Positions 25,970 to 35,342 of a DNA stretch of 35,362 bases are shown here, piece by piece (the stretch's first letter is position 1; every line of letters starts with the position of its first letter). The stretch comes from Oscillochloris sp. ZM17-4 (GTDB lineage Bacteria > Chloroflexota > Chloroflexia > Chloroflexales > Chloroflexaceae). The DNA lies in contig NZ_JAIEWN010000055.1 of assembly GCF_019599295.1 (NCBI RefSeq), positions 1-35,362 on the forward strand, written 5' to 3'. The notes below the pieces were generated by a model. It was not told the DNA's origin and did not search any database. It saw only the letters and a program-made list of their open reading frames with translations. A program made the position numbers and the translations under genes.

Positions 25970-26563
25970 ATGGCGAGTGAGTTTCCAACCGCCCTCACCA
26001 TCGACGGCGTCGAGCTACGCCTGCGGGTCGAGCGCAAGGCGGTGAAGAACGTCAACGCGCGCATGGGCGAGGGTGCGCTCCAGGTGAGCATCCCGCAGCG
26101 GCTGGAGCGCGCCGAGGCCATGCGGATCATCGACGTCCTTGCCCGCCGGCTGCTGCGCCGCCAGCGCGCCCGCCAGATCAACGCCGAGGAGGACGTCGCC
26201 GCGCTGGCCCGCCGGGTCGCCCTGCGCTTCCCCCAGCCGCCCGAGGTGCAGCGCGTCGAGTTCACCACCATCACCAGCTCCTGCTGGGGCTCCTACAGCC
26301 CGCGCACCCGCAGCATCAAGATCAGCGCCGCCCTGCGCCACATGCCACCCTGGGTGCTGGAGGCGGTGGTGGCCCACGAGCTGGCCCACGCCATCCACCC
26401 CAACCACAGCCCGGCCTTCTGGGCGCTGCTGCGCAGCGTCTACCCCGACACCGATAGGGCCAGGGCCTTCCTGGAGGGCGTGGCATGGCTGGCCCGCTCC
26501 TGGGAGAGCCTGCCGTCCGTCGAGCGCGCCCAGCTCGCCGCCGAGCGCGAGGAGCAGCCGTGA
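25970..26563 (+). CDS. YgjP-type (DUF45/M48-related) metallopeptidase
   Basis: A 197-residue protein. The middle has VNARMGEGALQVSIPQRL and EFTTITSSCWGSYSPRTRSIKISAALRHMPPWVLEAVVAHELAHAIHPNHSPAFWALL. HELAH is the zinc-binding HExxH, and the His of NHSPAFW is the third ligand, as in the YgjP/DUF45 family. The SCWGSYS phrase corresponds to the family's 'sRWGScs'. It is probably a cytoplasmic zinc protease of unknown target. The TGA overlaps the GTG start of the truncated yigZ by 4 nt (GTGA), so the two were translated together. Confidence 0.85.
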   Translation: MASEFPTALTIDGVELRLRVERKAVKNVNARMGEGALQVSIPQRLERAEAMRIIDVLARRLLRRQRARQINAEEDVAALARRVALRFPQPPEVQRVEFTTITSSCWGSYSPRTRSIKISAALRHMPPWVLEAVVAHELAHAIHPNHSPAFWALLRSVYPDTDRARAFLEGVAWLARSWESLPSVERAQLAAEREEQP

Positions 26564-26814
26564 GCGACGCCAGCCGCTACCCCATCCCCGCCGCCCGCGC
26601 CAGCGCTGAGATCCTGGTGGTCAACTCGCGCTTCATCGCCGACGCCGCCCCGACGCCCGACGTGGCCGCCGCCAAGGCCTTCATCGCCGAGGTGCGCGCC
26701 GCCACGCCCGACGCCAGCCACCACTGCTTCGCCTACCTGGCCGGCTACGGTGCCAGCGTCACCGCCGGCATGAGCGACGACGGCGAGCCGGCGGGGACGG
26801 CGGGCCGGCCCCTG
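26560..26814 (+). pseudogene. yigZ: YigZ/IMPACT-family protein, 3' part deleted
   Basis: From the GTG at 26560 the protein reads RYPIPAARASAEILVVNSRFIADAAP...DASHHCFAYLAGYG...GMSDDGEPAGTAGRPL, the highly conserved N-terminal half of the UPF0029/IMPACT fold with its 'SDDGEP.GTAG.P' motif. Homology ends at residue 85. The usual continuation (a variable segment, then '...RYFGGIKLGTGGL') and the C-terminal domain are absent. From there on, the DNA is the antisense of a helicase gene, in which the frame happens to stay open. The gene cannot give a complete protein. Confidence 0.85.
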
Positions 26815-28098
26815 GGCCGCCGTCCAGCCCGCCGGGTCGCCCGCCAGCAGCCCCTCCAGCTCGGCGGCGCGCGCGATCAGCCCCTCGGCGTCGATGGCCG
26901 ACAGGAACAGCGAGGGCCGCGACTCGCCGCCAGACACCGCGTAGAGCTGCAGCCGCTCCTTGGCCCGCGTGAGCGACACATACAGCAGACGGCGCTCCTC
27001 CTCGATGTCGTCCGCGCCGCTGAAGGGGATGTAGCCGGCGTTACAGTGCGGCACCAGCACCACCGGCCACTCCAGCCCCTTCGCCCGGTGGATCGTGCGG
27101 ATGTCCACCGCGTCGGCGCGCGGCCCCGCGTCGGCCCGCTCGGCCTCCAGCTGGGCCAGGTGTGCCCGCAGCTCGGCCAGCGCACCCCGCCCCCGCGCGT
27201 ACTGGATGAAGGCCGCCACATTCGCCGCGTAGCCCGCGCCCGTCTCCGGGAAGCCGCTGTGCTCGATCAGGAAGCCCTGGTAGCCCAGGCGGGCGTCCAG
27301 GTCGGACAGCAGCTTCTCGGCCGGCAGGCGCAGCTGCGCGCCGCCCAGCCAGATCAGCAGCTCGGCCAGCTCACGCAGCGCCGCCGCCGTCCGCTCCGAG
27401 ACCTTCTCGCCCACACGGATGAGCGACGCGCTGAGCGGCTGCCCCTGGCGCAGCGCCGCGTCCGCGCACTCCTGGGAGAGCTGGCGGGTCAGGTAGCGCT
27501 TGGGCCGGTTGTAGACGCTGCGCCAGCAGAGGGTCAGGCGCTCGCCCTCCTCGGCAGAGAGCCGCCGGCCCGCCCGCAGGGCCGCATCGTAGCCGGCCAG
27601 CTCCGCATACTTCAGCAGGTCGTCGATCTCGCGGCGGCGGAAGAAGGGCTCGTCGCCGGCCAGCCGGTAGGGGATGCGCGCCGCGATCAGGGCCTGCTCC
27701 AGCACCGGCGTCTGCGCGTTCAGGCGCACCAGCACGGCGATCTCGGCGTAGCGGTGGCCGGCGGCCCGCGCCGCCGCGACATCCTCGGCGAGCTGGCGGG
27801 CCATGGCCGGCTCATCGGGCGCCCTGCGCAGTGCGGTCGCCCCGCCGAAACCCCGCGCGGCCACCAGCGCCTTCGGGTGGCGCTCGCGGTTCTGCGCGAT
27901 CACCCGGTTGGCCAGCACCACATGCCCGGCCCGGCAGCGGAAATTGTCGGTCATCTCGTACACGGCGGCCCCGTAGCGCTGGGCGAAGCCGCGGAAGAAG
28001 GCCATCCTGGCCCCGCGAAACCCATAGATCGTCTGGTCGTCGTCGCCGATGGCCATATAGTTGCCGTGCGGCGCGGCCAGCATATCGAGGATCTCGTA
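26812..28098 (-). pseudogene. UvrD/PcrA-type helicase fragment, truncated at both ends
   Basis: About 429 codons of an SF1 helicase. It starts in the middle of the motif II-III segment (YEILDMLAAPHGNYMAIGDDDQTIYGFRGA) and continues with motif IV (EMTDNFRC), motif V (IRTIHRAKGLEWPVVLVPHCNAGYIPF) and motif VI (EEERRLLYVSLTRAKERLQLYA). Walker A (motif I), Ia and the DExQ of motif II are missing, because the frame hits TGA at 28099-28101 exactly where the low-GC element begins. The 3' end is also lost: after GDPAGWTAAQ the frame runs into antisense yigZ and further, ending at 26440. It cannot hydrolyse ATP and is a remnant. No internal stops are present, so the damage is recent. Confidence 0.88.
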
Positions 28099-28112
28099 TC
28101 AGACCCCCTAAA

Positions 28113-28171
28113 TTAGCGCACTCTAGCAATTTAATCGATGCACTTTGAGAAACAAAAATCAATGCACTCTA
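28113..28171 (+). repeat. Transposon left-end repeats (three GCACTYT motifs)
   Basis: Motifs at 28118-28124 (GCACTCT), 28140-28146 (GCACTTT) and 28164-28170 (GCACTCT), the last two preceded by ATCRAT. Spacing is 22 and 24 bp, about two helical turns, as for transposase-binding sites in Mu/Tn7-type ends. The last one overlaps the stop codon of the AAA+ gene. Confidence 0.65.
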
Positions 28172-29182
28172 TTTTTGATTGCCTCCTTCTATCGGCGCCC
28201 CACCTGCATCTGATGGTGAGGACTTTTGCTCCTCAACACGCTCTAGGACACCTTGTTCGCTCAGTTGCTTTAAATCGGATAGTACCTCGTCCATGACCTG
28301 CTTTGTTAACAGTCGCTTTTTGCCCTCAAGCGCCTGCCCAAGTCGTAAATCTAGACTTTTTAATACTGGCGGTATATTGTGCCAGTCTCCTCGTGTGCGT
28401 CTCAGTATCTCCGCGAGGAACTCTCGCATTTGCTTTTTGCGCACAATATCGGAGCCGCTGCGGTCAAGTTCCGCACCGAGGTTGTTCTTCAGCAGGTGTG
28501 AAAAGGCAATCGGAAGGCTTTGGACATTAAGCCGATCTAGCTCGATAGGAGCAGGAAGTGCTGCTGCTCGGGCATCGCCATTTGCGCGAATTTTCGTCCA
28601 CACCTTGTTTTTCTGGCCCTTGTCCGTGGCTGCAATAATAAGGATAGATCGTAGGCGTGTTATAGTGCCGTATACATCATCATAGTCGAGAAAAAACTCT
28701 AACACTTGGTTTAGGCTATCGTCGTCGAGTATATCGCCATTATCCAAAACCAGAAGCTTAATCTTCAGCTCTCCTAGATCCTTGCGGATGCTTCTGATTA
28801 CCTTATGAATATCACTTCGCGTGCTAAGCGGCAGAGCATCACTGCCCATACCTCGCGCTACCATGTACGCAGGGCGGAGACGTCGGTCGAGCGAATGACG
28901 CACTGCTCTAATGAGCGCGCGCTGCCCGCTCATTGATGATCGCTCAGGTGTTTCTAGTTTGACGAAGAGAACCTCCTCTGGACGCACAGCGTCTTTTGGT
29001 GGTGCCTGCCCTTCCCAGCGACCAGTAAGCCAGTATCTATACAGCGCGTGTCGTCCACTACCGACAAATCCAGAGATGAGATGTAATCGCCTCTCAGCAA
29101 ATGCCAGATCAAGCGCCACAAGTTGCTCATCAGTTTGTGGCAACTTTACATATGTGAGTAGATTAAGCGATGCTTTGGTCAT
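28169..29182 (-). CDS. TnsC/TniB-like AAA+ transposition protein with altered nucleotide site
   Basis: A 337-residue protein, last gene of the transposition operon; its ATG overlaps the stop of the 650-aa gene by 4 nt. The P-loop position reads SGFVGSGRHAL (residues 37-47), with Arg44 in place of the Walker A Lys and His in place of Ser/Thr. The Walker B strand is KIKLLVLDNGDIL (about 140-152), with Asn148 instead of the catalytic Glu. A sensor-1-like strand follows (LRSILIIAATDKG). In Tn7 and Tn5053 relatives the AAA+ protein forms filaments on target DNA and activates TnsB/TniA; the position and size here support that role. The changed residues suggest slow or no ATP hydrolysis. Identification rests on context and the Walker pattern, not on strong sequence identity. 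Confidence 0.65.
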   Translation of the reverse strand: MTKASLNLLTYVKLPQTDEQLVALDLAFAERRLHLISGFVGSGRHALYRYWLTGRWEGQAPPKDAVRPEEVLFVKLETPERSSMSGQRALIRAVRHSLDRRLRPAYMVARGMGSDALPLSTRSDIHKVIRSIRKDLGELKIKLLVLDNGDILDDDSLNQVLEFFLDYDDVYGTITRLRSILIIAATDKGQKNKVWTKIRANGDARAAALPAPIELDRLNVQSLPIAFSHLLKNNLGAELDRSGSDIVRKKQMREFLAEILRRTRGDWHNIPPVLKSLDLRLGQALEGKKRLLTKQVMDEVLSDLKQLSEQGVLERVEEQKSSPSDAGGAPIEGGNQK

Positions 29183-31131
29183 TCTAACTGATCCATCAAA
29201 TCTTCCAGATCGGCAAAATCGTCTGGGTTGATGTCTAAAGGAGTTCGACTTCCGGTGTTGTTCGTCGTCGTATTCCCCTTCGCCTTCTTCCTCGGCTTCT
29301 TCGCCGTAGACGGCACTCCCTCAGTTCCTGTAGGCGTTGTAGGCTCTTTGGCTACGCGGTAGTCTCGCTTGATATTCACCCGTTCTGGAAGTCCGCCCGC
29401 TTCTTGCCGCACCTCTTCAGAGATAGCTGTAAGCTTCTGCACAAGCTCCTCTTTCATCGCATTAAGAGTGCCCTTCTTGGCTGCCTCGTGCTCCTCCTCA
29501 GAAATGTTCTGTTCCTTTTTTGGCACTGCACGAAACCACTCTCCATCGGCAAGCATGATCTCAACTTGCCAACCCACAATATCGAGCTTGATCGCACATA
29601 TGGGGAACTCAACATTCCCCTCAAGTGTTCGCGCAGCAGCATTCATCCAGATGCGGTAGAGGTGCTTGCGTGTCTCATGATCGTCACAGATAGGTACATA
29701 CACGTCGTAGTCGAAGTGGAAGCCGAAATGGTACATCCGAACAGATTTTTGTATCGGTGGCACGGGATAGGGCAGGCTTACCAGCCGCCTGATAGGAGGA
29801 GCAGGACGCGGGATGACGCTTTTCCAAACTTCCTCACGACTTGGGCGTGTCTGATCTTTGCGTCGTTTGTCCGGCAGGTGTTCGGTGTTGATCTCGTGGC
29901 GATATGCCTCTAACTCTTGTGTCCATCTTTCTGCGGTCCATAATGCAGCAGGGTTCTCCTGAGCTTTTTTCTCGCTTTCTCTGTCCCAATACGCACCAGG
30001 GTATTGTTCGATGAAATCTCTCAATTGGCCGTGGCGACTCTCAATTTTTCGAGGCCAAGGGCGACCAGGGAACGAATTAGTCATCTCGAAAGGTTCGTGG
30101 CCAGTTTCGGTAATCAGGCGTAGGATCTCAATGAGAGCTGTGAATGCAGATGCATTATCATTGTAGAGGTAGCGTGAAAGACAACGTGCTCTGACTATCG
30201 ATGTAGCCAAAAGTATTCCAAAGTCCTCTTTGGTATAGCTAACCTTTCGGGGCGATCCGTCAGGATTGAAATCTATCTTTGGCACAACTCGAATACCTAA
30301 AATGTAGTCTGAAATCCACTCCATGCCCCAAAGCAGGACTGCTTTAACTGCCAAGCCTTTATGGTTGAGGTAAAACTTGGGATGCAAATCATCATAAAGC
30401 CACCACCAATTAATTTCAGGAGGTGTGGTGTCTTTTTTTGGTACTAAATGCTCACGAGCCCACTCTTCGCCGTAGACTGCGTAGAGTATCAAAGCAGCAC
30501 TGTCGCCACTAAGCAAGAGATCTATCTCTCGGTTGACTTTCTTTGGCGTGAGTGCAGGCTGCATAGACCGTGCATACTTAAACACATCACGTCGGTCGAT
30601 TTCCTCGGGCAAGGGTACCCTAGGTATTCGTTCGCCTGTTGAAACAACAGAGTTTCGGTAGCGATCAAATATTCCGAGAAAAATAGCCTTTTTTTGGGGT
30701 TCTGGGAGTATGCTACCACGTGGGCGTCCAGGATTATTGATGAAATAGGCAGCACTAGCGGCATCAAAATCAGCGGCATCACGGCAATGCTCCTCCTCGT
30801 ACCGCTGATGCTCGTCGAGTATCTCAAAGAATCTACGTCGTTTCACTCTGAAAATCGTATCTACATCCTTCCAATCCTGATCAGTGTACACAGGACGAGC
30901 AGACCGCGCGCGCAGAGAACGAAAACGCCAGCTGAGATTTCGCTTGGCAGCCAGAATGAGTTGCTCATCTGGAGGCTGGTTGAAGAAATCAGGTTTGCGG
31001 CCCGGAAGTGTCTTGTTATCTGCGGCTAGTTCTTTTTCCTGGCTCGATTCAGAGGAGAGAGGGGTGCCATGGTGTTGATCACCCGACTCTGCATCGGGTA
31101 GATCAGAATTCTCTGCATCTCTTTCAGCCAT
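29179..31131 (-). CDS. DDE transposase, TnsB/TniA/MuA-like
   Basis: A 650-residue protein. The N-terminal 230 residues are charged and helical (probable end-binding HTH domains, e.g. around 140-210). The integrase core has a first Asp in NWWWLYDDLHPKFYL (D247/D248), then LLWGMEWISDYILGI, second Asp in YLYNDNASAF (D325) and Glu in GRPWPRKIESRHGQLRDFI (E364), 39 residues after D325. This is the standard D,D-x(35-40)-E arrangement of the Mu/Tn7/Tn5053 group. A C-terminal barrel is likely at about 450-530. The tail is lysine-rich, then ends acidic (DINPDDFADLEDLMDQLE), like the TnsB tails that contact TnsC. It would cut and join transposon ends. Its ATG overlaps the 890-aa gene's TAA by one base (TAATG). 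Confidence 0.8.
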   Translation of the reverse strand: MAERDAENSDLPDAESGDQHHGTPLSSESSQEKELAADNKTLPGRKPDFFNQPPDEQLILAAKRNLSWRFRSLRARSARPVYTDQDWKDVDTIFRVKRRRFFEILDEHQRYEEEHCRDAADFDAASAAYFINNPGRPRGSILPEPQKKAIFLGIFDRYRNSVVSTGERIPRVPLPEEIDRRDVFKYARSMQPALTPKKVNREIDLLLSGDSAALILYAVYGEEWAREHLVPKKDTTPPEINWWWLYDDLHPKFYLNHKGLAVKAVLLWGMEWISDYILGIRVVPKIDFNPDGSPRKVSYTKEDFGILLATSIVRARCLSRYLYNDNASAFTALIEILRLITETGHEPFEMTNSFPGRPWPRKIESRHGQLRDFIEQYPGAYWDRESEKKAQENPAALWTAERWTQELEAYRHEINTEHLPDKRRKDQTRPSREEVWKSVIPRPAPPIRRLVSLPYPVPPIQKSVRMYHFGFHFDYDVYVPICDDHETRKHLYRIWMNAAARTLEGNVEFPICAIKLDIVGWQVEIMLADGEWFRAVPKKEQNISEEEHEAAKKGTLNAMKEELVQKLTAISEEVRQEAGGLPERVNIKRDYRVAKEPTTPTGTEGVPSTAKKPRKKAKGNTTTNNTGSRTPLDINPDDFADLEDLMDQLE

Positions 31132-33803
31132 TACTGTACCTCACCAATGAGATAGTACAGCCGACCCAAATCGTCTTCAACGAAGATGCTATCAGGCATG
31201 TCCTGGTAGTGATATGGGAAGGCACGGACGGCGTAGCTGAGCGATGAATCAAGCTTGAGCTTATCGTACCCATAGCGTCGTCCAGCAAAAACGATTGTAT
31301 CATGCTCTGCTGCAACGCCCTCCGCAACGACAGGTAGCAGTGAGCCTGCCGCCGGGGAATCAAAGCCGGGTAGTGTGAATCCGAACTGACGGAACTTTAG
31401 TGGCACATCGGGGCAGCGATGATGCGGAAAGCAGCCGGGCTCCGCCTCTGTACCATCGCCGTGACGCAGCCAGGCGAGCAGGGAGTCTTGCACACGCCGG
31501 GGTGTGAAGTCCCTCGGTGCAATCATGTCGTAGATATGTGCTGCGCCGTAGGGTGCCAGGCGGTTTTCGATGAGTGTGACCGTGTAGTCTAGGTGTGTTC
31601 GCACCTCCGCCTTCGTATGGGCACTGAACATGTCAAGGTCGTTCGATAGCCGCTTTTGGCGATAGGGCGCGACAACCTGCACCTTAGCCGCAAGCCAATG
31701 TGCTGCGCGTTTGATGTCATTGAGATCCCCCGACGCAAGCGAGGCATCGACCTGGATAATCTCGGGGATACCACGGAGTGGCCAATCAATCGCCCCAGGG
31801 TGCCAGATCGCCTGGTAGAGGGCGAGGGCCGCCTCACGATCCCCAACCTGATCCTTATCGGCGACCCAGACACCGACTGGCCGCGCACTCCCTATGTCAA
31901 GGACGAGCACGCCATGCTGCGCAGTGACTTTCTCCCTGGTTCGCCCTTTTAGTTGGAAGGTGATGGGTATCAACCGCCACACGCGATGTAGGCGGAGGTA
32001 GCCAGAGTTTCTCGTCCTCAAGCGGTGCCTTGGAGTGTAGACCGCCGGGCCGACGCCACCGGGCCACCGTCGCGGTTTAGGGAGCGTTGATAGTAAGGCG
32101 CGAGTAATCTGGATGCCAATGTCTGCAAGACCGAGCTGGGCCGCGTACTCATTGATGAGTGCGAGTGCCTCTTGCCAGAGCAAGGTGCCATCCACCCGGC
32201 CAAACTTGAAGAGGCACAGGTAGCGGAACAAGCGCCTATCTACGGCCTCTGGCCAGTCCGTGCGCGGCAGCATACCAATGCCGCCATAGGTGAGGGTAGC
32301 TCGGATACGGTCACGACCCTCACGGGTCGTTAGCCCTGCGCGATCAGCGAACTCATCAGCCAACCTGTAGAACCTACCATCGTCAGCGGTTGAGAAGCGT
32401 CGTTGCCGACGCGGTGCATGCGGGCGTACCCGCTGGCGCAATCGCTGACCTCGTCGCACGGCATAGCGAGCGACGCCATACGGGGCACGCCGTCCCCATT
32501 GGCGTCGCTGTGCGCCGCCTGTCTGCGCACTCAGGAGCGGATATAGGTCAATGGGAAGGCCGACCGCAACGATGGCATCGCGCAGGATCGCGATGTTGGT
32601 GGTGATGCGCTCCCTCGCTACACTGGTTAGACCGCCCAGGTGTCGATCAAGCGTGCCAGTAACACGGAGCAGGCTGAGTGTGCCCGGTGTGGCCCCACAA
32701 CGCCAATCAATGATCTCCTCAATCCCTCGTGTCACGTATAGGTTGAGGAGTTGTGCTGCCTGGGCACTGTCATCGCCACAAAGGGTCGTCAGTCGGGATC
32801 GAACGCCTGATATTGAGGCGAGGGTACCGTGCATTTGCTGTCGTTCGCGATGACCAGGTGGAAGGTGCAGAAAGTCCTCGCGCCAAAGGGTGTGCTGTTT
32901 TTGATCGCGCGGTGGGTCGCGCTGAAGCCTTGATGGCGTAATATGACTGATGAACCCTGCTTGAAAGATGGCGCGCTCTGTCTGGTGGCGTGGCAGCTTC
33001 TCTCGCTTGACGCTGCTCAACACGGTGTAGAGCGCACTGAGATCGGCGCGACATTGTGCAATGGTTGGAGCCGGCTGGTCAGTCATCTGGGCGATCAGCG
33101 GCTCCATCCGTTGGAGCGCTAGATAGGTTTGCGCAAGGGGATGTTCGGAGCCAGCCAGTGCGCCCACTGGTCCCAACTCTGCCGTTGTAAGCAGTAGACT
33201 GCGCGCGAGGCCGGCCGCAGCCTCATTGAGCTTTGAGCGCCAGTCCTGGGTATTGAATGCGGACGCAACTGCCTCTGCCGCTGCTTTCGATATGCACAAT
33301 CCTGATTGCAGCAGCGCAGCCGCTATGTCCGCGACGCTATCGTCTGTGAGAATACTTAGTGCCTGAGCAACGATCTGATCGAAACTGGGGCGCGCTAAAA
33401 CGGGAGGCTGGAATTGGAGCTTACTTCGGTGCTCACGCACAGGCTGTGCTCGGTCGAAATGTCCGTGGCCCCAATACCGCTGAAGCAGACCGAGTCGTGC
33501 GTGCTCATAGAGGTCGGCATCGCGGACTAGCGGGAGCAGTATATCGCGTCGCCAACTGAGGGAGGCATTGCGAAATGCCGTGAGGTCGCGCTTGTCTGTG
33601 CCTGATTGTGTGCGCTCCCACCGAAGCACCATCCTGGAGAGCCTGGCGCGCTGCTGCTGGCTCTGGAGGTAGTCCGTTAATTGCTCGGGTGTGATAAGCT
33701 CACGGGTCAGGAGTGCAGCAACTGCTGACCACCGACGGCGAACCAGATCGCTGGCCTGTTCGTCTAGTCCAGCAAGATATTCGGCAGGTGGCTCGTGCTG
33801 CAT
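31131..33803 (-). CDS. Second RNase H-fold transposase-like protein, probably lacking the catalytic Glu
   Basis: An 890-residue protein, first gene of the operon. Residues 1-600 are largely helical and unrecognised, with an Arg-rich patch at 431-470. At about 628-740 there is an integrase-like core: HGVLVLDIGSARPVGVWVAD (D636), a helix, EIIQVDASLASGDLNDIKRAAHWLA (D686), then VVAPYRQKRLSNDLDMFSAH. The position equivalent to the catalytic Glu holds Asn/Asp (N721-D722, 35-36 residues after D686); E733 is 47 away. At about 828-886, DTIVFAGRRYGYDKLKL...DSIFVEDDLGRLYYLI closely fits the Mu-transposase C-terminal barrel. It stands where tnsA stands in Tn7 but shows no TnsA nuclease motif. A structural or end-binding partner of the 650-aa transposase is the simplest idea. 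Confidence 0.65.
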   Translation of the reverse strand: MQHEPPAEYLAGLDEQASDLVRRRWSAVAALLTRELITPEQLTDYLQSQQQRARLSRMVLRWERTQSGTDKRDLTAFRNASLSWRRDILLPLVRDADLYEHARLGLLQRYWGHGHFDRAQPVREHRSKLQFQPPVLARPSFDQIVAQALSILTDDSVADIAAALLQSGLCISKAAAEAVASAFNTQDWRSKLNEAAAGLARSLLLTTAELGPVGALAGSEHPLAQTYLALQRMEPLIAQMTDQPAPTIAQCRADLSALYTVLSSVKREKLPRHQTERAIFQAGFISHITPSRLQRDPPRDQKQHTLWREDFLHLPPGHRERQQMHGTLASISGVRSRLTTLCGDDSAQAAQLLNLYVTRGIEEIIDWRCGATPGTLSLLRVTGTLDRHLGGLTSVARERITTNIAILRDAIVAVGLPIDLYPLLSAQTGGAQRRQWGRRAPYGVARYAVRRGQRLRQRVRPHAPRRQRRFSTADDGRFYRLADEFADRAGLTTREGRDRIRATLTYGGIGMLPRTDWPEAVDRRLFRYLCLFKFGRVDGTLLWQEALALINEYAAQLGLADIGIQITRALLSTLPKPRRWPGGVGPAVYTPRHRLRTRNSGYLRLHRVWRLIPITFQLKGRTREKVTAQHGVLVLDIGSARPVGVWVADKDQVGDREAALALYQAIWHPGAIDWPLRGIPEIIQVDASLASGDLNDIKRAAHWLAAKVQVVAPYRQKRLSNDLDMFSAHTKAEVRTHLDYTVTLIENRLAPYGAAHIYDMIAPRDFTPRRVQDSLLAWLRHGDGTEAEPGCFPHHRCPDVPLKFRQFGFTLPGFDSPAAGSLLPVVAEGVAAEHDTIVFAGRRYGYDKLKLDSSLSYAVRAFPYHYQDMPDSIFVEDDLGRLYYLIGEVQ

Positions 33804-33846
33804 AGCCGCTCATTGGGGTACGGGTACACGGTGGTACGCCTTTGGA

Positions 33847-33855
33847 TGCATTGAT
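33847..33855 (-). repeat. Inverted copy of the end-repeat core
   Basis: Minus strand ATCAATGCA equals the core of the third left-end motif (28158-28166) in inverted orientation, as expected for a transposon right end. It lies between the operon promoter and its first gene. Nine bases can match by chance. Confidence 0.4.
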
Positions 33856-33901
33856 GGCCACGCCATCTGAACTTAAGCAGGGGCTACTTGGAATATCATG
33901 A

Positions 33902-33930
33902 TCATACGCATGAATGTTTTAGCTGTCAAC
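33902..33930 (-). promoter_or_regulatory. Promoter of the transposition operon
   Basis: Minus strand perfect TTGACA (33925-33930), 17-bp spacer, TATGAT (33902-33907). Initiation near 33895 gives a leader of about 90 nt that contains the inverted end-repeat core, allowing autoregulation by the transposase. Confidence 0.8.
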
Positions 33931-33987
33931 CACAGACGCTCGTAATATCACTATTCCAGCCCGTCTCTCCGGTTACAGAGCAGCCGC

Positions 33988-34992
33988 TCAAATCCCCGCC
34001 CGGTCGATGGCGTTGCGTAGATCATCGTCGTCGGGGACGGTGTAGATCCCGGTGGTGCTGAGACGGGAGTGGCCGAGGACGCGCTGGACCTCGCTGAGGT
34101 CGGCGCCGCGGCGGAGCATGCGCCGGGCCAGGGAGTGGCGCAGGGCGTGAGGCGAGGCGGCCTCCAGCTGGGCGGCCATCTGGGTGAGCTGGCCAGCCCG
34201 CTCGACGCGGGGCTCCTTCTTCGCCGCCGCCCGCAGATGATCGGCGGCGCGCTGGCAGAGTATGGCGATGCGGTGGCGCACCAGGCGCGTGCTCATCCCC
34301 GGCACCAGCGGGTGGCCCAGCTTCGTCCGATCCTGGGCGACTAGCAGCGGCTCGCGCTCGGCGTCGCTGCCAATCGCCGGCAGGCCGTCGGGGCAGCGCA
34401 GCTCGCGGAGATAGCGGCGCAGTAAGTTCACCGCATCGCTGTGCAGGGGGATGCGCCGAGTCTTGCGGCCCTTGCCCAGTCGGACGATCACATTCCCCGC
34501 ATCCAGATCCAGATCGCGCAGTTGCACGTCGCACGCCTCCTGCGAGCGCAGGCCGGCGTAGGCCAGCAGCGCCAGCAGTGCGCCGTCGCGCAGCCGGATA
34601 TGCTTCTCCTCCTCGGCCTGCACGGCGCGCAGCACGGCATCGACCGCATCGTCGGGCAGCGAGCGCGGGCCGCGCTCCTCCAGCGGTAGATCGCGCACGC
34701 CCTTGGCTGGGTTCTCTCTGAGCAGCCGCTCGGCCACCAGCCACTCCCCGAATCGGCGTAGGGTCGAGAGCCCGCGGTTAATCGTCGCCGGCTTGCGTTC
34801 CTCGTCGTCCTGGCGGTGGCGCACCCAGGCGCTGATGTCTTTCGCGAGGAGCTGCGTCGGGTCGAAGGCACGCCCGCGCTGCTCCTCCCACCAGCGGGCG
34901 AAGGTCGCCAGGTCGGCGCGGGCGGCGCGCTGCGATGCTGGCTCACGTAGCGTGGCTAGGTAGCGGTCTGTGGTCGCGTTCAGCATCGGCAT
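33988..34992 (-). CDS. Tyrosine recombinase (XerC/D-like integrase)
   Basis: A 334-residue protein. The N-terminal SAM-like core-binding domain is at about 5-95 (RYLATLREPAS...TINRGLSTLRRFGEWLVAERLL). The catalytic domain has Arg149 (AYAGLRSQEA), a Lys in the beta-hairpin (LGKGRKTRRIPL, K174/K177), His282 and Arg285 (SPHALRHSLA), His308 (LGHSRLSTTGIY) and nucleophile Tyr317. A stretch of about 60 residues between the hairpin and the HxxR box (residues 210-275) is longer than in XerC or XerD. GC content is host-like, unlike the transposon on its left. It begins on the stop of the HTH gene (TGATG), so they are translated together. Whether it resolves chromosomes, plasmids or an integrated element is unknown. 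Confidence 0.9.
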   Translation of the reverse strand: MPMLNATTDRYLATLREPASQRAARADLATFARWWEEQRGRAFDPTQLLAKDISAWVRHRQDDEERKPATINRGLSTLRRFGEWLVAERLLRENPAKGVRDLPLEERGPRSLPDDAVDAVLRAVQAEEEKHIRLRDGALLALLAYAGLRSQEACDVQLRDLDLDAGNVIVRLGKGRKTRRIPLHSDAVNLLRRYLRELRCPDGLPAIGSDAEREPLLVAQDRTKLGHPLVPGMSTRLVRHRIAILCQRAADHLRAAAKKEPRVERAGQLTQMAAQLEAASPHALRHSLARRMLRRGADLSEVQRVLGHSRLSTTGIYTVPDDDDLRNAIDRAGI

Positions 34993-35342
34993 CAGGCGTC
35001 CTCAGCAGGGCGAATAGTCACTTCTTCGCGCCATCCGCCCGTCCCATCGGAGATTCGATGCATGAACAGGAGCTCGCCGGTTGGCTCAAGCGTATCCGGG
35101 TCAACGCAGATCCAGCCCTGCTCGTTCGCCTCAGCAATGATCGCCGCGATATGTGCCTGACGCTCCGGCGTCATCACGGGCGGCCATGGGCCGAGCCACG
35201 CCTCTCGGCGCTCCGGCAAAAGATCCAGCTGGTCGGCGATTGCCAGCCGGCGATCATCGGATAGCTCGGCATCGCCGCAGATGAGCCGCTCGTAGACATC
35301 CTGGCTCAGCCCAAGCCAGGCGGCGAAGTCGGCGACGCTCAT
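34992..35342 (-). CDS. Small HTH-type protein coupled to the recombinase
   Basis: 116 residues from the ATG at 35340-35342; the frame is open to the right edge, so a longer N-terminus is possible. Residues 1-42 (SVADFAAWLGLSQDVYERLICGDAELSDDRRLAIADQLDLLPE) have the spacing of an XRE/Cro helix-turn-helix. The middle PPVMTPERQAHIAAIIAEANEQGWICVDPDTLEPTGELLFMH and the charged end are unrecognised. One base of its stop is shared with the recombinase start. It is probably a DNA-binding regulator or accessory factor of the recombinase; this is inferred from position and the HTH pattern only. Confidence 0.6.
   Translation of the reverse strand: MSVADFAAWLGLSQDVYERLICGDAELSDDRRLAIADQLDLLPERREAWLGPWPPVMTPERQAHIAAIIAEANEQGWICVDPDTLEPTGELLFMHRISDGTGGWREEVTIRPAEDA

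Follow-up and report, generated by a model that had tools for sequence, protein, structure and literature searches.

The A-B-C operon and its recurrence

The window, by which we mean the whole 35362-b stretch of DNA analysed, corresponds to contig C134 of genome G000 over its full length. It contains three minus-strand genes, in the order A, B and C, between an interrupted uvrD-like gene and a tyrosine recombinase gene:

26440..28096, minus strand: uvrD-like helicase gene, 3' part, the interrupted target; five relatives have intact frames of 780-857 aa
28097..28123, plus strand: element terminus TATCAGACCCCCTAAATTAGCGCACTC at the C-gene end, interrupting the uvrD-like gene and matching a second terminus, TATCAGACCCCATAAATCAGCGCACTC
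28116..28169, plus strand: three (C/T)GCACT(C/T) repeats, putative transposase binding sites, recognised from the sequence
28169..29182, minus strand: gene C, TnsC/TniB-like AAA+ ATPase, 337 aa
29179..31131, minus strand: gene B, TnsB-like DDE transposase, 650 aa (D247, D325, E364)
31131..33803, minus strand: gene A, 890 aa, TnsB/MuA-like protein without a catalytic triad, putative adaptor; conserved family
33960..33977, minus strand: conserved 18-bp site TGTRACCNNAGRGACRGG, putative tyrosine recombinase site, upstream of A
33988..34992, minus strand: XerC/D-like tyrosine recombinase, 334 aa (Phage_integrase, E=2e-28)
34992..35342, minus strand: small gene preceding the recombinase, 116 aa, found in the same place at G000:C13 and G061:C76

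As an earlier note on this DNA had reported, the three genes overlap, by 1 and 4 nt. GC content across the trio is 48-61%, against about 74% before the drop. The survey for the gene order that the note had proposed confirmed that the A-B-C unit is repeated in several Chloroflexales genomes. Two further units lie in G000 itself (contigs C95 and C13), and others were found in G061, G302, G419 and G424, with partial units elsewhere; G061 includes a contig of Chloroflexales bacterium ZM16-3, and G419 one of Herpetosiphonaceae bacterium MGR_bin20. The A proteins share 22-43% identity (seven compared pairwise), and the order A-B-C is kept. A profile of A matched 9 of 82 Chloroflexales genomes and 5 of 400 genomes sampled phylum-wide, four of the five belonging to Chloroflexales; a match in G161 (E=5.5e-6), probably an unrelated short transposase/ATPase locus, was left out of the count. 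A scan of 85,000 genomes with a narrower alignment yielded two loci, and a scan of viral contigs no relative. Recurrence of the unit is far from chance, since the gene order is repeated and A is enriched in Chloroflexales.

A transposase, an ATPase and a transposase-like protein without a triad

Searches of Pfam, NCBIfam and PADLOC with the window sequences gave no name for A or B. As a single sequence B matched nothing in the PDB, but a 7-sequence profile matched ShCAST TnsB (E=3e-9) with D, D and E aligned. The rve domain was detected in 5 of 9 B homologues (best 2e-8), and D247, D325 and E364 are invariant across 9 B sequences. Judged by this profile, B is a TnsB-like transposase, and the integrase-like core that the note had read in the 650-aa protein is upheld. 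Its TnsC-like AAA+ gene stands as well: C matched AAA_22 in Pfam (E=2e-4), and its homologues matched AAA_22, AAA_16 or TniB, the TniB match being weak and present in one homologue. By these domain matches C is a TnsC-like AAA+ protein.

Protein A matched nothing in Pfam, among PDB sequences or among nuclease families. In an alignment of 10 A sequences neither D-D-E nor any other acidic triad was conserved; those acidic columns that 8 or more of the 10 share are scattered, and at the place of the second D of B, as read from alignments, only the A of the window has an Asp. Profile alignment of A with B covered the first strands and first helix of the RNase H core, and was non-significant (P=0.1-0.2) both with 8/7 and with 10/9 sequences. 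A structure model of A from a 3-sequence alignment was of low confidence (mean pLDDT 42.7); when it was compared with 350,542 PDB chains by Foldseek, the best four matches, all weak (E 0.05-0.25), were type V-K TnsB chains. The corresponding 3-sequence model of B was also poor (mean pLDDT 39.3), with the Mu core as its best, weak, fold match. Fold matches of these poor models serve as weak support only; the structure prediction that the note had called for therefore yielded a hint for A, in that its best matches are TnsB chains, and little more. An integrase-like core in the 890-aa protein, as the note had it, is accordingly backed weakly, by fold matches, and finds no counterpart in sequence searches. 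We regard A, with moderate confidence, as a transposase-like protein without catalysis, in which the model weakly suggests a transposase fold; it is probably a transposase paralogue whose catalytic function has been lost.

The proposal that A takes the place of TnsA found no support, and A is unlikely to cut because it has no conserved acidic triad. An active A, working as a TnsA-like second subunit that cuts a single strand or a single end, would fit its place at the head of the operon, where tnsA also stands, and the absence of TnsA (no Pfam candidate in the window trio, E2 or E3, two further elements described below). Given ten sequences that share neither D-D-E nor another acidic triad, and no nuclease family match, we consider it quite improbable. 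Of the heteromeric transposase suggested earlier, the two transposase-like proteins remain, one of them lacking the catalytic triad; the element is better described as an RNA-guided transposon in which the transposase-like partner is catalytically dead.

Element ends, far module and homing guides

The note had also seen no TniQ/TnsD selector. The window indeed contains none, nor TnsA, nor any named family, but the element continues beyond the contig; it is split between contigs, of which the window is a single one, and this accounts for the missing selector. At G000:C95:283946-284362 lie the N-terminal 138 codons of the interrupted uvrD, followed by the other end of the element; the terminus there, TATCAGACCCCATAAATCAGCGCACTC (about G000:C95:284350), falls in the uvrD gene that TATCAGACCCCCTAAATTAGCGCACTC also interrupts. 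Across the two sides, G000:C95:284362-286500 and window 26440-28096, 330 bp of uvrD are missing, protospacer included, and the usual target side is occupied by the far end instead of the C end. Just inside this far end lies a gene for a putative IS-type transposase (G000:C95:284607-285980).

Two elements are each contained in a single contig. E2 (C95:159586-192450) carries C, B, A, the recombinase, cargo, HTH, IscB-like and Cas12-like genes, a guide and matched ends, with three repeats beside C at C95:159586 and two inverted repeats at about C95:192450; E3 spans about G302:C6:96070-127500. The window element and three others, namely E4 (C13+C94), E5 (G302:C23+C31) and E6 (G061:C76+C39), were joined from two contigs by their matching ends and guides, so that we infer rather than observe their continuity. 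Tandem end repeats follow C at most other loci too. E2 is flanked outside by a 12-bp direct repeat, ACGATGACCTAG, the only clear case; a consistent short target-site duplication was not found. Four units end beside tRNA genes, namely tRNA-Arg(TCT), tRNA-Met(CAT) and, twice, tRNA-Arg(TCG). When the joined flanks of E2 were used to search for an empty site, the two flanks were unlinked in relatives. The NUDIX end is uninterrupted in G024 (C330, L133), and in G061 (C40:187806, L134) an E2-type element end sits at the very same stop codon of NUDIX. Beside the far ends of E5 and E6 are further end-like repeats in opposite orientation (L122:2237-2320 and L123:57005-58048, contig coordinates), an arrangement that insertion of one element next to another would give.

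On contig C95, the far module of the window element combines HTH, IscB-like and Cas12-like genes with a CRISPR array and with a homing guide that stands apart. Genes for an HTH protein, an IscB-like protein and a protein of 947-1294 aa occur together in E2, in E3 and on the C95 side of the window element. The IscB-like proteins matched NF040563 (E=1e-27 to 1e-30; window element, 1e-27) and have an intact HNH; the RuvC-I strand lacks its aspartate and RuvC is degenerate. By motif reading, the large protein has zinc-finger cysteines and RuvC-like motifs without the catalytic aspartates. Its best match, a weak one, was Cas12e, and it adjoins arrays; neither the protein nor its 3-sequence profile found Cas12k in the PDB. 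From motifs, position and the Cas12e match we call it a putative inactivated Cas12-like protein. Across the 82 genomes A is associated with the Cas12-like gene (Fisher p=1.6e-6) and with the IscB-like gene (p=3e-7). The array of the window element has 37-nt repeats, 8 in number including degenerate ones; behind the Cas12-like gene we counted 7 repeats in E4, 4 in E5, 12 in E6 and 2 in E2, and a search for an array in E3 found none. TniQ had no Pfam match among the proteins of the window, E2 and E3, a scan that covered all but a few small ORFs. The cargo of E2 comprises type I restriction-modification genes and CHAT/NACHT proteins, and that of E3 KAP, TatD, NOV_C helicase, DUF1156 and DUF499 proteins.

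The guide of the window element is a repeat unit apart from the array with a 36-nt spacer, CGAGCAGGATCTGCTGAACTATATCGGCGTCTGCAA, which encodes EQDLLNYIGVC of UvrD. It differs from the uvrD of relatives at 3-4 positions in four and 7 in a fifth; in its own genome the missing uvrD segment has no strong match other than the spacer itself. In E2 and E3 a guide just behind cas12 matches the flanking gene (22 nt with 2 mismatches and 20/20, respectively). This pattern was used as a prediction for the split units, for which further modules were then searched, and the partners found for E4, E5 and E6 carry guides matching 13/13, 21 nt with 1 mismatch and 21/21. In these five further elements the neighbouring gene matched by the guide is a tRNA gene in four and NUDIX in one. 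The guides are preceded by a 3' end like that of the array repeat. When each of the six flanks was compared with each of the six guides, the diagonal scores were 24, 16, 20, 13, 18 and 21 and the off-diagonal scores 8-13, except for two elements sharing one tRNA; shuffled flanks averaged about 10 and never exceeded 15. The diagonal thus stands out in five cases, the 13 nt of E4 being within the range of shuffles. In E2-E6 the distance from the PAM-side edge to the junction is about 54-67 bp (61-67 on the first guess, 54-64 with termini adjusted by eye). The PAM-side trinucleotides are CCC (in a relative's uvrD), CCC, CCA, CCT, ATA and CTA, i.e. CC in four and AT/CT in two.

All six elements with a located module therefore carry a guide to their insertion site, and five share one orientation and a narrow spacing. 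These matches, like the gene content, ends and arrays, were read directly from the DNA, and RNA-guided homing is well supported by them. Such guides might instead be self-avoidance or anti-rival spacers, with targeting by A or C alone, and the evidence so far is sequence only; a match to the insertion site in six of six located modules, five of them in the same orientation and at nearly the same spacing, makes this very unlikely. E6 also contains repeated tracrRNA-like stretches (L123:13499-14012), two of which then carry different tRNA-type guides and could conceivably be natural tracr-guide units.

A copy of TGTRACCNNAGRGACRGG, in two cases with one mismatch, was found upstream of A at eight A loci, at a distance of 100-200 bp, and several elements have extra copies. 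In E2, E3 and the window element a second copy is inverted, and the recombinase gene lies between the two. A tyrosine recombinase gene is near A in seven of the seven elements compared. A proteins that share only 25-28% identity come with recombinases that are 93-95% identical, so modules have been exchanged. In E4 a 3' recombinase fragment (L009:8860-8973) directly precedes A; the intact recombinase is 5.9 kb upstream, separated from the fragment by a CHAT-type gene, possibly a case of cargo capture at the recombinase site.

With a recombinase near every A compared and four insertions abutting tRNA genes, the elements could be tyrosine-integrase islands in which A-B-C and the CRISPR module are cargo or a fossil. 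We give this hardly any weight: the inverted termini and tandem repeats at the ends are what DDE elements typically have, the recombinase gene lies inside the element and away from the junction, closely similar recombinases go with divergent A proteins, and uvrD and NUDIX are atypical targets for integrases.

Proposed mechanism and comparison with known systems

Taken as a whole, the trio is best explained, with high probability, by a large CRISPR-associated transposon of type V, of which it forms one end; most likely this transposon is a new, TniQ-less one with A standing in for TniQ. Cleavage and joining of the element ends would fall to B, the DDE protein, and marking of the target to C, the AAA+ regulator. 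The inactivated Cas12-like protein with its guide would find that target and direct insertion to a point about 54-67 bp away from the protospacer, counted from its PAM side, the homing guides outside the array sending each element to a given host gene, mostly tRNA genes and here uvrD. In place of TniQ, A would probably couple the Cas12 complex to B and C, and the IscB-like protein, RuvC-degenerate and HNH-intact, would probably nick the target or help to open it. Cointegrates are expected because there is no TnsA; the tyrosine recombinase would probably resolve them and may also shuffle modules. The roles of A, the IscB-like protein and the recombinase, as well as every biochemical role named here, are our inference. 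A more tentative proposal, possible but not the one we would bet on, is that two RNA-guided proteins are used together, the inactive Cas12 targeting and the IscB-like protein acting as an HNH nickase at or near the same target, with the dead paralogue replacing TniQ in a mixed transpososome with the active transposase. Such a system could offer an insertion tool with different parts.

Several of these parts have been published separately; that no named family appears in the window still holds. A literature search for IscB with TnsB and for TniQ-less CASTs, of incomplete coverage, found no work joining the parts, and we could not find a description, as a transposon, of a cutting transposase combined with a non-cutting look-alike and two crippled RNA-guided nucleases.

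Type V-K CASTs likewise have a TnsB-like DDE transposase, a TnsC-like ATPase, no TnsA and an inactive Cas12, and use separate homing guides to tRNA genes with insertion about 60 bp from the PAM. In contrast to them, the present elements have no TniQ, and add a dead transposase-like protein, an IscB-like protein and a tyrosine recombinase; their Cas12-like protein, of 947-1294 aa, has no detectable similarity to Cas12k. With Tn7 and Tn5053 (Tn402) they share a transposase with an AAA+ regulator, cargo and, in some elements, TG-type ends, but they lack TnsA, TnsD/TniQ and a serine resolvase, and their homing is RNA-guided.

CRISPR transposons without TniQ are known in the CasMu-V and CasMu-I groups. 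CasMu-V combines a transposase, an ATPase and a Cas12 without RuvC-III, one example having a homing spacer 68 bp from the end, and CasMuC, found mainly with CasMu-I (type I-A), is a paralogue of MuA that has been inactivated and for which a role as adaptor to the CRISPR effector was predicted (Altae-Tran et al., 2023, PMC10910872); Mu-linked I-A elements are noted to lack TniQ (PMC12669027). The window element could be a CasMu-V, already described, with IscB and HTH as extra genes of a branch, and the best fold match of the poor B model, the Mu core, would agree. We consider this unlikely: the profile match of B is TnsB, CasMuC goes mainly with CasMu-I, and PMC10910872 lists the Cas12, IscB and HTH genes separately, without a transposon. 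By description only, the present elements differ from CasMu in that CasMuC is mainly with I-A and that IscB and a tyrosine recombinase are unmentioned there. Here a CRISPR effector would be linked to a Tn7/Mu-like transposase without TniQ, apparently via a dead transposase-like protein, in parallel to CasMuC.

The closest counterpart of the far module is the published set of an inactive Cas12, an OMEGA-IscB with inactive RuvC and active HNH, and an HTH protein, whose role was left unexplained (Altae-Tran et al., 2023, PMC10910872). Compared by description and motif reading, both have an inactivated Cas12, an IscB with inactive RuvC and intact HNH, an HTH protein and an array. That set was published without a transposon, whereas here it lies within an element of defined ends that also carries A-B-C and homing guides, and this gives the set a likely function in transposon targeting.
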